From NCBI RefSeq assembly GCF_019802125.1, contig NZ_JAHVHT010000003.1, positions 1 through 64,000 of the forward strand: a DNA stretch of 64,000 bases. The letters run 5' to 3'. Every line of letters begins with the position of its first letter. Position 1 is the stretch's first letter. Made by a program: the position numbers and the translations under genes. Of the stretch, positions 40,210-59,502 are shown in pieces. The stretch is from Tateyamaria omphalii. Lineage in GTDB: Bacteria > Pseudomonadota > Alphaproteobacteria > Rhodobacterales > Rhodobacteraceae. Under the pieces are notes generated by a model. The model was not told the origin of the DNA. It worked only from the letters and a program-made list of their open reading frames with translations, and searched no databases.

Positions 40210-43167
40210 TTATCCTTCGATGGTCAGCGCTTCGTTCACGAGGGCTGCTTGTTGTGCTTTGTGCTGGCTGGCGAGCCCCGTGGCGGGGCTGGCAGAGGTG
40301 GCGCGGCCCACATAGAGGGGCCGTGTGTGCTTGGCCTTGATCCGGCTCAGGACCCATTCGATGTTGGGCTCGATAAAGGTCCATGCGCCCTGGTTCTTGG
40401 GCTCTTCCTGGCACCAGACCATTTCCGCCCCTTTGAACCGCTCCAGTTCCTTGACCAGAGAGATCGCCGGGAACGGATAGAACTGTTCGATCCGCATCAG
40501 GTAGATGTCGTCGATGCCGCGGGCGTCACGCTCTTCGAGCAGGTCGTAATAGACCTTGCCCGAGCACATGACGACGCGCTTGATCTTGTCATCCTTGGCC
40601 AGCTTGGCGTCCGAATTGCCCTGCTCGGCATCGTCCCACAGCACGCGGTGGAAGGACGAACCGGTGGTGAATTCCTCGGCCTTGGACACGGCCAGCTTGT
40701 GGCGGAGGAGCGACTTGGGCGTCATCAGGATCAACGGTTTGCGGAAGTCACGGTGGATCTGGCGGCGCAGGATGTGGAAGTAGTTCGCTGGCGTTGTGCA
40801 GTTGGCGACGATCCAGTTGTCCTGTCCGCACATCTGCAGGAAACGTTCGAGGCGGGCCGAGGAGTGCTCAGGCCCCTGGCCCTCAAAGCCATGGGGCAGG
40901 AGGACGACGAGGCCGGACATGCGCAGCCATTTGGATTCGCCCGACGAGATGAACTGGTCGAACATGATCTGCGCGCCGTTGGCGAAGTCGCCGAACTGCG
41001 CTTCCCAAAGCGTAAGCGCATTGGGTTCGGCCATGGAGTAGCCATACTCAAAGCCCAACACCGCGTATTCCGACAGCATCGAGTCGATGACTTCGTAATG
41101 GGCCTGGCCCGCGCGGATGTTGTTGAGGGGGTAGAACCGTTCCTCGGTCTCCTGGTTCACGAAGCCGGAGTGCCGTTGGCTGAACGTGCCGCGGGTCGAA
41201 TCCTGACCCGCCAGACGCACCGGGAACCCCTCGGTCAGAAGCGAGCCGAAGGCCAGCGCCTCACCCGTTGCCCAATCGAACCCTTCGCCGCTGTCGAACA
41301 TCTTTTTCTTGGCGTCGATCAGGCGGCCGACGGTCTTGTGCATGGGAAAGCCATCCGGGGCAAAGGTCAGCGCCTTGCCCACATCGGTCAGGGTTTCGGG
41401 CGCGATGGCCGTCTTGCCGCGCTGGTAATCCTCCTTGTTCTTGTCGAGATGGGACCACTTGCCGTCAAGCCAATCGGCCTTGTTCGGTTTGTAATCCTTG
41501 CCGGCTTCGAACTCATCATTCATGCGCGCCTGGAAGGCGGCCTTCATGTCCTCGATTTCGCCCTCGGGGATCAGGCCGTCTTTCACCAGCCGTTCGGTGT
41601 AAAGCGTGAGCGTTGTTTTGTGCTTCTTGATCCGCTTGTACATCACCGGGTTGGTGAACATGGGCTCGTCGCCCTCGTTGTGCCCGAACCGGCGGTAGCA
41701 GAAGATGTCGATGACAACGTCCTTGCGGAACTTTTGGCGGAACTCGGTGGCGACCTTGGCGGCGTGGACCACGGCCTCCGGGTCGTCACCGTTCACGTGA
41801 AAGATCGGCGCCTCGACCACCAGTGCGTTGTCGGTGGGATAGGGGGAGGAGCGAGAGAAGTGCGGCGCGGTGGTGAAGCCGATCTGGTTGTTCACCACAA
41901 TGTGCATGGTGCCGCCGGTGCGGTGACCGCGCAGGCCCGACAAGGCGAAGCATTCGGCCACGACGCCCTGACCGGCAAAGGCCGCGTCGCCGTGCAGAAG
42001 GATGGGCATGACGGCGGTGCGGTCGTGGTCGTTCAGTTGGTCCTGTTTCGCCCGCGCCTTGCCCAGCACCACCGGGTTCACGGCTTCGAGGTGCGAGGGG
42101 TTTGCGGTGAGCGAAAGGTGGACTTCATTGCCGTCAAACTCGCGATCGGAGGACGCGCCGAGGTGGTATTTCACGTCGCCAGAGCCATCGACATCCTCGG
42201 GTTTGAAGCTGCCGCCCTGGAATTCGTTGAAGATCGCCTTGTAGGGTTTCGCCATCACGTTGGCGAGGACCGACAGACGCCCCCGGTGGGGCATGCCGAT
42301 GACAATCTCTTTCACACCCAGCGCGCCGCCGCGCTTGATGATCTGCTCCATCGCCGGGATTAGGCTTTCACCACCATCGAGGCCGAAGCGTTTTGTACCC
42401 ATGTATTTGACGTGCAGGAATTTTTCGAACCCCTCGGCCTCGACCATCTTGTTCAGGATGGCCTTGCGCCCCTCGCGGGTGAACTGGATTTCCTTGCCGA
42501 AGCCTTCGATCCTTTCCTTGAGCCAGCCGGCTTCTTCGGGGTTCGAGATGTGCATGTATTGCAGCGCAAACGTGCCGCAATAGGTGCGCTTCACGATGGC
42601 CACGATCTCGCGCATCGTGGCGACCTGCAGGCCCAGCACATTGTCGATAAAGATCGGGCGGTCCATGTCGGCCTCGGTGAAGCCGTAGGATTTCGGATCT
42701 AGCTCGGGGTGCGGGGTCTGATCGCGCATGCCCAGCGGGTCGAGGTCGGCCACAAGGTGTCCCCGGATGCGGTAGGCGCGGATGATCATCAGGGCACGGA
42801 TACTGTCGAGCACGGCGCGCTTGATCTGGTCATCGCTGACCTCCACGCCCTTCTCGGCGGCCTTCGCCTTGATCTTGTCGCCCGCGCCCTTGACCTCTGC
42901 CGGGGCGACCCATTCGCCGGTCAGCGCCTGGGTCAGGTCATCGCCCGGCTGGGGCGGCCAGTCGGTGCGCGCCCAGGACGGCCCCTCGGCCTCGCGTTTG
43001 ACGCTGACCTCGTCATCGCCCATCGCCTTGAAGAACGCTTGCCAGCTTTCATCGACCGCCGCGGGGTCGTTGGCGTAGCGGGCATACATCTGTTCGAGGT
43101 ATTCCGCGTTGTGCCCCTGCATGAAGGACGAGGCATGGAACTGGTCGTTGGGGGATTGTTCGGTCAT
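40210..43167 (-). CDS. sucA: 2-Oxoglutarate dehydrogenase E1
   Basis: A 985-residue thiamine-diphosphate enzyme that decarboxylates 2-oxoglutarate in the TCA cycle. The typical N-terminal helix that binds E2/E3 is present ([20 protein letters not shown]), then [34 protein letters not shown] (ThDP site), [12 protein letters not shown], and the C-terminal [18 protein letters not shown]. Length and end are standard. A long open frame runs antisense inside it but has no support. It begins 63 bp after sucD. Confidence 0.97.
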
Positions 43168-46190: not shown

Positions 46191-47384
46191 TTACCCCTTG
46201 ACCGCCTTCACGATCTTCTGCGCACCATCCTTCAGGTCGTCGGCAGCAATCACGTCGAGGCCGGAGTTGTTGATGATGTCCTTGCCCTGCTGCACATTCG
46301 TGCCTTCCAGACGCACCACCAGCGGCACTTGCAGGCCGACCTCTTTCACAGCAGCGACCACACCTTCTGCGATCACGTCGCAACGCATGATGCCGCCGAA
46401 GATATTCACCAGGATGCCTTTGACATTGGGATCAGAGGTGATGATCTTGAACGCTTCGGTCACCTTCTCCTTGGTCGCACCGCCGCCCACGTCGAGGAAG
46501 TTGGCAGGCTCGGCGCCGTAGAGCTTGATGATGTCCATCGTCGCCATGGCGAGGCCCGCGCCGTTCACCATGCAGCCGATTTCACCATCCAAGGCGATAT
46601 AGTTCAGGTCGTATTTCGATGCAGCGAGTTCCTTGGGGTCTTCCTCGGTCTCGTCGCGCAGCTCGTTGATGTCGGCGTGCCGGTAGATGGCGTTGCCATC
46701 GAACGACACCTTGGCGTCGAGCACTTTCAGATCGCCGCTGTCGGTCACGATCAGCGGGTTGATCTCGAGCATCTCCATGTCTTTTTCCATGAAGGCTTTG
46801 TAGAGCAGACCCATCAGGCCCACGCACTGCTTTACCTGTTTGCCTTCCAGACCCAGCATGAATGCGATGCGGCGGCCGTGGTAGGCTTGGTAGCCGGTGG
46901 CGGGATCAACGCTGAAGCTCAGGATTTTTTCCGGAGTCTCGGCGGCCACCTCTTCGATGTCCATGCCACCCTCGGTCGAGCAGACAAAGGAGACGCGGCT
47001 GGTGACGCGATCAACGAGCAGGGCGAGATACATCTCGGTTTCGATGCCCGAGCCGTCTTCGATATAGATGCGGTTGACCTGCTTGCCCGCCGGGCCGGTC
47101 TGGTGGGTCACAAGCGTGCGGCCCAGCATCTTCTTGGCTTCTTCGGCGGCTTCCTCGACCGATTTGGTCAGGCGTACGCCGCCCTTGTCGCCCGCATCCG
47201 CTTCTTTGAAGCTGCCCTTGCCGCGACCACCCGCGTGGATCTGTGCCTTGACCACCCACATCGGGCCATCCAATGCGCCTGCGGCAGTCTTCGCGTCTTC
47301 GGCCCGCAGGACGACGCGCCCGTCCGAGACCGGAGCCCCGTAGCTGCGCAGAAGGGCTTTGGCCTGGTATTCATGGATGTTCAT
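46191..47384 (-). CDS. sucC: Succinyl-CoA synthetase beta subunit
   Basis: A 397-residue ATP-grasp beta subunit of standard length: [66 protein letters not shown] and [14 protein letters not shown]. The start at 47384 is the family-typical MNIHEYQ. A 32-bp element with two GTGATCAC palindromes lies 115-146 bp upstream. It is the first gene of the long minus-strand suc/odh/lpd series. Confidence 0.97.
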
Positions 47385-47498
47385 GGCGGTTTGATCCCGT
47401 ATAGATACGTCAACGTTGGGCCTATTCGACCAACACTGAACGGTGCGTAAACGGAAAATATGTCGCACCGGCGGTTTTGAGGGGTGAAAACGTGATTT

Positions 47499-47530
47499 TG
47501 TGATCACTGCGCGAAAACGTGTGATCACAA
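47499..47530 (-). promoter_or_regulatory. Double GTGATCAC element upstream of sucC
   Basis: Read toward sucC: TTGTGATCACACGT (47530-47517), 9 bp, then GTGATCACA (47507-47499). Palindrome centres are 21 bp apart, about 119 and 140 bp from the sucC start. The same arrangement precedes sdhC. It also lies 32-63 bp before the divergent gene at 47562. Confidence 0.75.
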
Positions 47531-47561: not shown

Positions 47562-48596
47562 ATGTCGCAATTTCCTATAAAATCAAAGGAAAACGGCCTG
47601 CGCTGGGGAACGGTACTGACAGCGAACGAACCGGCGGCGTTGGTCGAGACGAATGTGCGCTGGCATTTGGCCACCGGCGCGGCTGCCGTTTACGTCTTCC
47701 TGGACGACCCCGATGACCCGGCCGCAGAGGTGCTATCGGCAATCGACGGTTGCACCATGCAGTGCTGCGATGATGCCTATTGGCGCGCGCGCCGCCCGAA
47801 CAAGGGACGGCCCCCGTCCCAGATGCGTCGCCAGACCATCAATGCCAACCGGGCGCAGAACCGATGCGATCTGGATTGGCTGTTTCACATCGATGCGGAC
47901 GAGTTCATCTGGCAGGACGGCGATCTGAGCGCCGAATTGTCTGCCCATGCCGATCCGCTGACGGAACTGAACCTGCCGGTCCTCGAACGCATCTTTCCTG
48001 CGGGCGCGCAATCGACGCTGTTTGACGGCGCCTACCGCGCCAGTTCGGACCTGTCCGAAGACGATGCGGAAGCGGCTTTTGCCCCCTTCGCCCGCTTTAT
48101 GAAGCGCGGCCAGTATTCCCACGGCGCAGGCAAAAGCGGTGTGCAGGTCGGGGCGGGTTTGCGCCTTGGCGTGCATAACGCGACACGCACCGGGTCCGAG
48201 GGGCGCCAGCGTCGCGCCGCCAAGCGGGTGTCGACAACGGCGCGCTTGCTTCATTTCGACGGCATGACACCGCTGCACTGGGTGATGAAAGTGCTACGCT
48301 ATCGTCAGACGCCGCCGGAGGTGCAGGCCACGATCCTGCAACCACATCGTGCGGAACAGATCGCGTGGATGCTTGAGAAATCGCAGAACCGGCAAGAGGC
48401 TATGGCTGCCCATCACGCACTCTTTGCCATGACCGACGCCCGGCACGCGCAACTCAACCGTTTCGATCTGCTGCGCGACATATCCTTTGACCCGGCCCGC
48501 GTGCTCGGGCCCGCATGCCCGGACCTCAGCGTTGCAGCCTTCGATGCTGAACTGATGCGCCGTAACCCTGAACTGGCAGATGTGATAAACGCCTAA
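47562..48596 (+). CDS. Glycosyltransferase family 2-type protein
   Basis: A 344-residue protein with a GT-A-like fold. LRWGTVLTANEPAALVETNV is the start of the nucleotide-sugar domain, and DLDWLFHIDADEFIW holds the metal-binding DxD (Asp111, Asp113, with Glu114). AAAGGA and GAGGG lie before the ATG. Such Rhodobacterales proteins usually modify surface polysaccharide. It diverges from sucC over a 177-bp shared regulatory region and converges with the cyclase gene, overlapping it by 4 bp. Confidence 0.78.
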   Translation: MSQFPIKSKENGLRWGTVLTANEPAALVETNVRWHLATGAAAVYVFLDDPDDPAAEVLSAIDGCTMQCCDDAYWRARRPNKGRPPSQMRRQTINANRAQNRCDLDWLFHIDADEFIWQDGDLSAELSAHADPLTELNLPVLERIFPAGAQSTLFDGAYRASSDLSEDDAEAAFAPFARFMKRGQYSHGAGKSGVQVGAGLRLGVHNATRTGSEGRQRRAAKRVSTTARLLHFDGMTPLHWVMKVLRYRQTPPEVQATILQPHRAEQIAWMLEKSQNRQEAMAAHHALFAMTDARHAQLNRFDLLRDISFDPARVLGPACPDLSVAAFDAELMRRNPELADVINA

Positions 48597-49480: not shown

Positions 49481-50536
<1,056 letters not shown>

Positions 50537-56741: not shown

Positions 56742-56773
56742 TTGTGATCACACGTATTTCTGCCGTGATCACA
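56742..56773 (+). promoter_or_regulatory. Double GTGATCAC element upstream of sdhC
   Basis: TTGTGATCACACGT (56742-56755), 9 bp, then GTGATCACA (56765-56773). Palindrome centres are 21 bp apart, about 119 and 140 bp before the sdhC start. Same layout and orientation as upstream of sucC. Confidence 0.75.
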
Positions 56774-56825
56774 TTTGGGCAAAATCCTGCAAATGCGCCA
56801 AAAAACCGCGCCATTTCTAGGGTCG

Positions 56826-56844
56826 ACGCGCGTGACTCGCGCGT
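56826..56844. promoter_or_regulatory. Inverted repeat in the sdhC leader
   Basis: ACGCGCG (56826-56832) and CGCGCGT (56838-56844) with a 5-nt loop, 43 bp before the sdhC start. It may be a leader hairpin. Confidence 0.45.
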
Positions 56845-56886
56845 AAAAAGGAGTATCAAAGGGCAGCCGAGAATAAAGGAAGCAAC

Positions 56887-57270
56887 ATGGCCGACGTCAA
56901 TCGGGGCAATCGCCCGCTCTCGCCACACCTGCAAATCTACCGCCCGCAATGGACATCGATCTCGTCCATCATGGTGCGGATCACCGGCATCGGCTGCCTG
57001 ATCGCCTCGGTCCTCGTCGTAAGCTGGCTGCTGGCGGCAGCAACGTCGGAAGCCGCCTTTGCGGCCATCGACGGACTTCTGCGCAGCATCCTGGGCACGG
57101 TAATCCTGACGCTCGCGATGTGGGGTATCTTCTACCACATGCTGGGCCGCCTGCGGCACGTGCTGTGGGATTTCGGCTATTTTGTGCAGGTCCCCGTATC
57201 CGAAGACATGGCCAAGGGCATGTTCATCGGGGCCACGCTGCTCACCATCTTTGTTCTCGTTGTGGCCTGA
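56887..57270 (+). CDS. sdhC: Succinate dehydrogenase cytochrome b556 subunit
   Basis: A 127-residue membrane anchor with three spans. RPLSPHLQIYRPQWTSISSI is the family start, with Ser27 and Arg31 as likely quinone-site residues. FYHMLGRLRHVLWDFG holds the haem-ligand histidine (His84). It joins SdhD to hold the SdhAB catalytic dimer and pass electrons to ubiquinone. The start MADVNRGNRP follows AAAGGAAGCAAC. The upstream double-palindrome element probably regulates the operon. Confidence 0.95.
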   Translation: MADVNRGNRPLSPHLQIYRPQWTSISSIMVRITGIGCLIASVLVVSWLLAAATSEAAFAAIDGLLRSILGTVILTLAMWGIFYHMLGRLRHVLWDFGYFVQVPVSEDMAKGMFIGATLLTIFVLVVA

Positions 57271-57696: not shown

Positions 57697-59502
57697 ATGG
57701 CTGCATATGATTACGAGACGCATGAATATGACGTCGTGGTCGTTGGCGCGGGTGGCGCCGGGCTGCGGGCGACATTGGGTATGGCGGAACAAGGGCTGCG
57801 CACCGCGTGCGTAACCAAGGTGTTCCCGACCCGCTCGCACACGGTGGCGGCACAGGGCGGCATTGCAGCGTCGCTGTCCAACATGGGGCCCGACAACTGG
57901 CAGTGGCACATGTACGACACGGTCAAGGGCTCCGACTGGCTGGGTGATACCGATGCCATGGAATACCTCGCCCGCGAAGCGCCCAAAGCCGTTTACGAGC
58001 TTGAACACTACGGCGTGCCCTTCTCGCGCACGGAAGAGGGCAAGATCTACCAGCGCCCCTTCGGCGGTCACACCACCGAATTTGGCGAAGGCCCCCCTGT
58101 GCAGCGCACCTGCGCCGCCGCCGACCGGACCGGCCACGCGATCCTGCACACGCTCTATGGCCAGTCGCTGAAGAACAACGCCGAATTCTACATCGAATAC
58201 TTCGCCGTCGACCTGATCATGTCCGAAGACGGCGTGTGCCAGGGTGTGCTGTGCTGGAAACTCGATGACGGCACAATGCACCTGTTTGCGGCCAAGATGG
58301 TTGTGCTGGCGACCGGCGGCTATGGCCGCGCCTACTTCTCGGCCACATCGGCCCACACCTGCACCGGCGACGGCGGCGGCATGACGGCCCGCGCCGGTCT
58401 GCCCCTGCAGGACATGGAGTTCGTACAGTTCCACCCGACCGGCATTTACGGCTCGGGCTGCCTGATCACCGAAGGCGCGCGGGGCGAGGGCGGCTACCTC
58501 ACCAACTCAGAAGGTGAGCGGTTCATGGAACGCTACGCGCCGACCTACAAGGACCTCGCGTCCCGTGACGTGGTCAGCCGCTGTATGACCATGGAAATCC
58601 GCGAAGGCCGCGGCGTGGGCGCCGATGGCGACCACATCCACCTGCACCTCAACCACTTGCCGCCAGAAACACTGGCCGAACGCCTGCCGGGCATCAGCGA
58701 GTCGGCACGCATCTTTGCAGGCGTCGACCTGACCAAAGAACCGATCCCGGTCCTGCCCACCGTCCACTACAACATGGGTGGCATACCCACGAACTACTGG
58801 GGTGAGGTGCTGGCACCGACCAAGGACAACCCCGACAACGTCTCGCCCGGCCTGATGGCCGTGGGTGAAGCGGGCTGCGCCTCGGTCCACGGTGCGAACC
58901 GTCTTGGCTCCAACTCGCTGATCGACCTCGTGGTCTTCGGCCGCGCCGCCGCCATCCGCGCCAAGGATGTGGTGGACGCGGCAGCCCCCGTGCCGACGCC
59001 CAACAAACGCTCGGTCGAGGCTGCGTTCAGCCGCTTCGATGGCCTGCGTTATGCCAAGGGCCATGTGCCCACGGCGGAACTGCGTCTGGAAATGCAGCGC
59101 ACCATGCAGCAGGACGCCGCCGTCTTCCGCACCGACAAGACGCTGGCCGAGGGCGAAGAGAAGATGAAGGCCGTGGCCGAAAAGCAGAGCGATCTGCAGG
59201 TCACCGACACGTCGCTCGTCTGGAACTCCGACCTGATGGAAACGCTGGAGTTGACGAACCTCATGCCCAACGCGGTCGCCACGATCACGGCCGCCGCCGC
59301 GCGCAAAGAAAGCCGCGGCGCCCACGCGCACGAGGACTATCCGGATCGCGATGATGAGAACTGGCGCAAGCACAGCCTCGTCTGGTTCAAGGGCAACGCA
59401 GCCAGCCTTGGCTATCGCGGCGTGCACCTGCAACCGCTGACCAGCCACAACGATGGCGGCATCGACCTCAAGAAAATCGCGCCCAAGGCGCGGGTCTACT
59501 AA
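57697..59502 (+). CDS. sdhA: Succinate dehydrogenase flavoprotein subunit
   Basis: A 601-residue flavoprotein of standard length. FAD motif [16 protein letters not shown] starts at residue 14; the covalent FAD histidine is His48 in [23 protein letters not shown]-like text near the substrate site reads [16 protein letters not shown]; the C-terminal [18 protein letters not shown] is conserved. AGGAGG precedes the ATG. The iron-sulfur gene sdhB does not follow at once; three other genes lie between. Confidence 0.97.

Follow-up and report, generated by a model that had tools for sequence, protein, structure and literature searches.

A likely double operator of the GntR-type regulator AkgR upstream of the sucC and sdhC operons in Rhodobacteraceae

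We analysed a stretch of Tateyamaria omphalii DNA of 64,000 nucleotides (the window) and found that the operons for succinyl-CoA synthetase and succinate dehydrogenase are preceded by the same composite element, built from two copies of the palindrome GTGATCAC at a fixed distance from each other. The element is real, widespread and functional-looking, and is most likely the target of a known regulator. Judging from sequence comparison across the family, it is likely to be a double operator of the GntR/FCD regulator AkgR, which would activate the sucC and sdhC operons together. The regulator and its motif are already known; what appears to be new is the fixed geometry of the double site, its phasing by whole helical turns and the parallel decay of the gene and its sites. 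Throughout much of this large bacterial family, a conserved double operator would be tied to a regulator that already has a name, which hints at how joint switching of two TCA-cycle segments is achieved.

Anatomy of the composite element

A pattern scan for TTGTGATCACACGT-N9-GTGATCACA returned two exact matches in the window, one on each strand, and no further match in the window at up to three mismatches. The elements, their palindromes and the genes around them are as follows.

47499..47530, minus strand: sucC-side composite element TTGTGATCACACGT-N9-GTGATCACA (pattern scan), with the pair centred 130 bp before the sucC start codon
47521..47528: distal palindrome GTGATCAC of the sucC copy (word search)
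47500..47507: proximal palindrome GTGATCAC of the sucC copy (word search)
46191..47384, minus strand: sucC, succinyl-CoA synthetase beta subunit (ATP-grasp_2, Ligase_CoA), first gene downstream of the element
40210..43167, minus strand: sucA-like 2-oxoglutarate dehydrogenase E1 (ORF and domain search), following sucC in the same orientation
49481-50521: mdh, lying with other genes between the sucC and sdhC operons
56742..56773, plus strand: sdhC-side composite element TTGTGATCACACGT-N9-GTGATCACA (pattern scan), with the pair centred 129 bp before the sdhC start codon
56744..56751: distal palindrome GTGATCAC of the sdhC copy (word search)
56765..56772: proximal palindrome GTGATCAC of the sdhC copy (word search)
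56887..57270, plus strand: sdhC, succinate dehydrogenase cytochrome b subunit (Sdh_cyt)
57697..59502, plus strand: sdhA, succinate dehydrogenase flavoprotein (ORF and domain search)

At three or fewer mismatches, 0.01 matches to the composite pattern were expected in shuffled windows, and none of 100 shuffles contained two or more. The word GTGATCAC occurred seven times in the window against 1.09 expected. When the 4.49-Mb genome was scanned with 19 fixed bases and up to two mismatches, the sucC and sdhC elements were recovered and no third place was found. The first-pass annotation had described an identical element at the two genes, and this is confirmed. The palindrome centres, said there to be exactly 21 bp apart, have this spacing in both copies, and the distances given to the start codon (about 119 and 140 bp, with a difference of 1 bp between the genes) match the pair centres listed above. 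The two operons had also been called unlinked, a description that fails, as they lie 9.2 kb apart on one contig.

Comparison of 61 loci, the window included, gave a conserved core of approximately TTTGTGATCACA-N11-TGTGATCACAAA at sucC and weaker flanks at sdhC; relatives do not preserve the CGT adjoining the distal palindrome. Two more TGTGATCACA palindromes in the genome, at L144 (G000:C1:1304357) and L002 (C3:635998), were inspected for overlapping ORFs.

Conservation of the paired palindromes

We searched a sample of 198 genomes of the same family, one per genus code, with the pair pattern GTGATCACN{4,34}GTGATCAC, which allows 31 spacings. Pairs were present in 176 of the 198 genomes, usually two per genome, and the exact 21-bp version was present in 164. 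Summed over all genomes, 282 of 351 pairs had the 21-bp spacing, which is one of the 31 allowed. A reversed-pattern control gave zero matches in all 198 genomes, and is a weak control, since CTAG, which is uncommon in many bacteria, forms part of the reversed word. Positions of the pairs were recorded in the 61 loci, that is, the window and 60 others fetched because they contain pairs; 43 pairs lay upstream of sucC (39 at 21 bp and four at 20) and 38 upstream of sdhC (36 at 21 bp and two at 20).

From 187 genomes with an SdhC match we took 156 sdhC upstream regions, and a pair with up to two mismatches was seen in 132 of them. Two of these regions belong to genomes (G096 and G114) without a strong ortholog of the candidate regulator L053 described below. 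Among the 139 ortholog-bearing genomes, the sdhC pair was found in 130 (116 at 21 bp, 12 at 20, one at 19 and one at 22), while nine had no sdhC pair at this threshold; the absence of the element from close relatives, which had been named beforehand as grounds for discarding it, is therefore not what was observed. Genomes with zero pairs gave 3-119 hits each when three mismatches were permitted, which was too permissive, and their sdhC upstream regions were inspected instead.

Additional pairs were seen in a few genomes. G042 has a further 21-bp GTGATCAC pair, its third (L332, 1794-1822), upstream of a gene for a FumC-like fumarase, and G135 and G191 have three 21-bp pairs each.

A GntR/FCD protein as the candidate regulator

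The genome contains 20 GntR-family genes (21 hits, two of them within one gene). One of these, L053, is located on another contig (G000:C4:189950-190594, minus strand) and encodes a protein with an N-terminal GntR winged helix (PF00392, 54.2 bits) and a C-terminal FCD domain (PF07729, 64.0 bits). A perfect TTGTGATCACAA is found directly upstream of its start codon. The first-pass annotation had held that the binding protein could not be identified from the window; it is indeed not encoded there, but the genome points to L053. Escherichia coli McbR has a regulon that differs from the TCA operons studied here. It is likewise of GntR type and is, by sequence, the nearest solved relative (PDB 4p9f, E 1.2e-19 over residues 19-210).

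A regulator with this motif and these targets has been described in Rhodobacter sphaeroides under the names AkgR and RSP_0981, which we take to be the same protein. In the portions of the sources available to us, AkgR is described as an activator of the GntR type whose binding sites include GTGATCAC (PMC6365646), and RSP_0981, of the GntR family, is the predicted regulator of sucCD, sdh and the 2-oxoglutarate dehydrogenase genes (PMC4344238). The system described here resembles that regulon in its GntR regulator, its GTGATCAC motif and its sucC and sdhC operons, which we count as targets from the position of the sites. We call L053 AkgR on the basis of this match in published motif and targets, and the family and gene order also fit: in G051, sucC, sdhC and the L053 ortholog follow one another within about 10.5 kb, consistent with the order RSP_0967, RSP_0974-6, RSP_0981. 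The L053 protein is probably the AkgR ortholog. In the accessible parts of the AkgR, RSP_0981 and GTGATCAC literature, descriptions of the R. sphaeroides regulon contain no 21-bp pair, no phasing by whole turns to the promoter and no operator before akgR. In PMC4419725, PMC8557541 and PMC5507952, as far as accessible, AkgR appears solely among the references.

Two other systems share features with this one. According to the accessible part of PMC11323563, the regulon of the LacI-type regulator CceR of R. sphaeroides also has succinate dehydrogenase, 2-oxoglutarate dehydrogenase and fumarase, and CceR was considered as a candidate for this reason. In Pseudomonas simiae, the GntR-like PS417_07240 of the deoxyribonate cluster has a GTGATCAC palindrome spanning -47 to -40 relative to its start, and its protein is 32% identical to AkgR. 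In the text available from the same source (PMC6365646), however, it is the proposed regulator of a sugar-acid oxidation cluster and not of TCA operons, with one palindrome and no pair.

The operator in front of akgR

An exact GTGATCAC was found just upstream of the start in each of the 30 best matches to L053 from the family sample, a set that counts L053 itself, and before the start in all 80 of the nearest named loci (the best 80 of 522 relatives, which may overlap the 30). These 80 loci include Tateyamaria, Sulfitobacter, Roseobacter and Ruegeria; in them, the palindrome centre precedes the first in-frame start codon by 6-15 bp, and TTGAC lies 18 bp upstream of the palindrome in 62 and 19 bp upstream in 13. 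In close akgR orthologs, the palindrome thus covers the place expected for the -10 region, which suggests that AkgR probably represses its own gene in this genome and in closer relatives.

We rejected the idea that an operator precedes every akgR. Among 20 more distant orthologs (L466-L485), it was exact in eight, had one mismatch in one and was absent in 11, and several of the genomes without it retain the pairs at sucC and sdhC. The operator was absent in G051, G040 and G155, had one mismatch in G147 and was present in G122. From its absence in G051, G040, G155 and the 11 distant orthologs, we conclude that conservation of the target pairs reaches further than that of the akgR operator. A different arrangement was seen in L333 (G187:C1:3357949-3357969), where two GTGATCAC palindromes precede akgR with centres only 13 bp apart; a single operator is usual in close relatives.

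Predicted promoters and helical phasing

The following promoter regions were predicted downstream of the two pairs in the window.

47447..47452, minus strand: candidate sucC -35 region GTTTAC (weak; from the consensus of 43 copies)
47421..47427, minus strand: candidate sucC -10 region GAATAGG (weak)
56832..56837, plus strand: predicted sdhC -35 hexamer GTGACT (consensus of relatives CGTGACA), 63 bp from the proximal palindrome centre
56854..56859, plus strand: predicted sdhC -10 hexamer TATCAA, with a 16-bp spacer

No consensus promoter was found in a promoter scan at sucC. In the consensus of 43 sucC promoters, a -35-like TTTA starts approximately 51 bp from the proximal palindrome centre within a weakly defined promoter, about one helical turn closer to the pair than the -35 at sdhC. 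The sdhC promoters of relatives share a common predicted -35, CGTGACA/T, and a -10 near TAtnaa, separated mostly by a 16-bp spacer.

Distances between the pair and the -35 were compared in 114 of the 132 pair-bearing sdhC promoters, those with exactly one [GT]TGAC at 50-86 bp. Left out were 14 promoters without [GT]TGAC in the searched range and four with two such words or only distant ones, G100 (55 bp and a second GTGAC) being one of the four. The proximal palindrome centre lies 61-65 bp from the -35 in 95 of the 114 promoters, and the remaining 19 distances are 52-54 bp (eight), 72-75 bp (nine), 82 bp (one) and 84 bp (one). In the sdhC promoters searched, no [GT]TGAC was seen at 56-60, 66-71 or 76-81 bp. 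None of 200,000 draws of uniform random distances was as coherent as the 114 promoters, a test that is partly post hoc, since the 38 promoters examined first gave rise to the -35 motif and the idea of phasing. Once the idea had been formed, a further 15 non-modal distances within 50-86 bp were added, and all of them were in phase. When stray pentamers at 40-95 bp were retained, such as those at 40, 46, 90 and 94, the broader set held 25 non-modal values and p was approximately 2e-5. As a control, the distance from the -35 to the first ATG showed no phasing, with R of 0.15 versus 0.89 for the distance from the pair to the -35.

We placed the distances on an AkgR protein tree, in which 46 of 50 loci had a usable distance (14 of them non-modal) and inner branches are mostly weak (nine of 43 starred as well supported). 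The minimum number of changes among the four distance classes on this tree is 13, about equal to the number for shuffled labels (13.4), and the starred branches alone force five changes for the 52 class and two each for the 73 and 84 classes. The whole-turn shifts are scattered on the tree, indicating that they arose many times. For instance, the window's genome, with a distance of 63 bp, is closest on the tree to G139, which has 52 bp.

The whole-turn phasing of the sdhC distances implies that activation depends on the face of the helix. Binding on one face of the DNA, as the earlier annotation had proposed, finds support in both the 21-bp spacing and the whole-turn distances to the -35. Two AkgR dimers would sit side by side on the GTGATCAC palindromes of each element, two helical turns apart. 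The phasing suggests that these dimers, lying on one face, would contact RNA polymerase from positions 52-84 bp ahead of the -35. Across genera, the shifts repeat what is in effect a natural experiment on spacing, and they lead to a precise prediction, namely that insertions of 5 bp would kill activation and insertions of 10-11 bp would not.

The same positions bear on the sign of regulation. AkgR could instead act upstream as a repressor of sucC and sdhC, either through looping or because it blocks another activator, with relief by a metabolite. Many GntR regulators are repressors, and at the promoter of akgR, where the operator exists, the palindrome at the expected -10 is in a repressor position. 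However, the sdhC pair lies upstream of the -35 in all 114 promoters at the distances given above and overlaps it in none, its phasing suits contact with the polymerase, and AkgR is termed an activator in what could be consulted of PMC6365646; repression from upstream is unlikely on balance. Returning to activation by AkgR, we lean towards a fuller account in which two AkgR dimers are locked on one face of the DNA at the double site and evolution repeatedly shifts that site by full turns of about 10.5 bp and rejects half turns. In part of the family, on this account, the protein also autorepresses through the single palindrome at its own -10, so that in those genomes the number and position of sites would decide the sign of regulation.

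Co-inheritance of gene and sites

With E<1e-50 as the cut-off for orthologs of L053, gene and pair were both present in 173 of the 198 genomes, the gene only in four (G040, G122, G147 and G155), the pair only in three (G019, G096 and G114) and neither in 18; these counts are uncorrected for kinship, and a Fisher value for the table is not a true probability because the genomes are related. Of the gene-only genomes, G040 has a pair with one mismatch before sdhC, and a search for SdhC in G122, G147 and G155 found none, hence there was no sdhC promoter to judge. An sdhC region was available for 17 of the 21 genomes in which a strong ortholog is missing; 15 of these regions were without a pair at up to two mismatches, and those of G096 and G114 contained perfect pairs. 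G114, where no strong ortholog was found, is rated 100% complete. Remnants of akgR were seen in G157 (L267), where the gene has internal stops, a one-mismatch operator and a four-mismatch sdhC pair at the usual place, and in G109 (L270), where it is fragmented and there is no pair.

A control GntR gene, L048, was the only other regulator compared for co-occurrence. It is encoded on the same contig as the window, about 31 kb outside it, has no GTGATCAC in its locus and has a match at E<1e-50 in only three of the 198 genomes. We rejected it as a second candidate.

These patterns speak to whether AkgR is the protein that binds. If a different regulator bound the elements, the GntR gene might share the motif in some lineages merely as a member of the regulon; the three pair-only genomes and the distant orthologs that are without the akgR operator in genomes retaining pairs would fit this, and an operator before a gene indicates regulation of that gene, not the identity of the binder. 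Yet 18 of the 21 genomes without a strong ortholog are also without pairs, the two with broken copies among them, GntR control of the same operons is predicted in R. sphaeroides in the accessible part of PMC4344238, and the palindrome itself is among the AkgR sites in that of PMC6365646. We consider binding by another regulator to be very improbable. The proposal that one regulator serves both operons, put forward in the first-pass annotation, gains support from the co-occurrence of the pair with a single GntR gene that carries its own palindrome in the closest relatives (in eight of the 20 distant ones). With gene and sites lost jointly, the regulon is also well suited to studies of how such a circuit decays. 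CRP/FNR-type sites (TGTGA...TCACA) have similar half-sites, and in the CRP consensus TGTGA and TCACA are separated by a 6-bp spacer, but the palindrome TGTGATCACA is without this spacer in aligned copies, and we rejected a CRP/FNR identity on site anatomy, giving it practically no weight.

Other features near the elements

A divergent glycosyltransferase-like ORF (47562-48596, plus strand) begins 32 bp from the sucC element. At sdhC, a second conserved element, approximately TGCGCCAAAAAACCGCGC, was observed between the pair and the -35 (interval 56773 to 56832 in the window). An element of this kind is found about 27 bp past the proximal palindrome in 33 of the 132 sdhC promoters, compared with 0.42 expected from shuffles, and its most frequent place is 36 bp before the sdhC -35.
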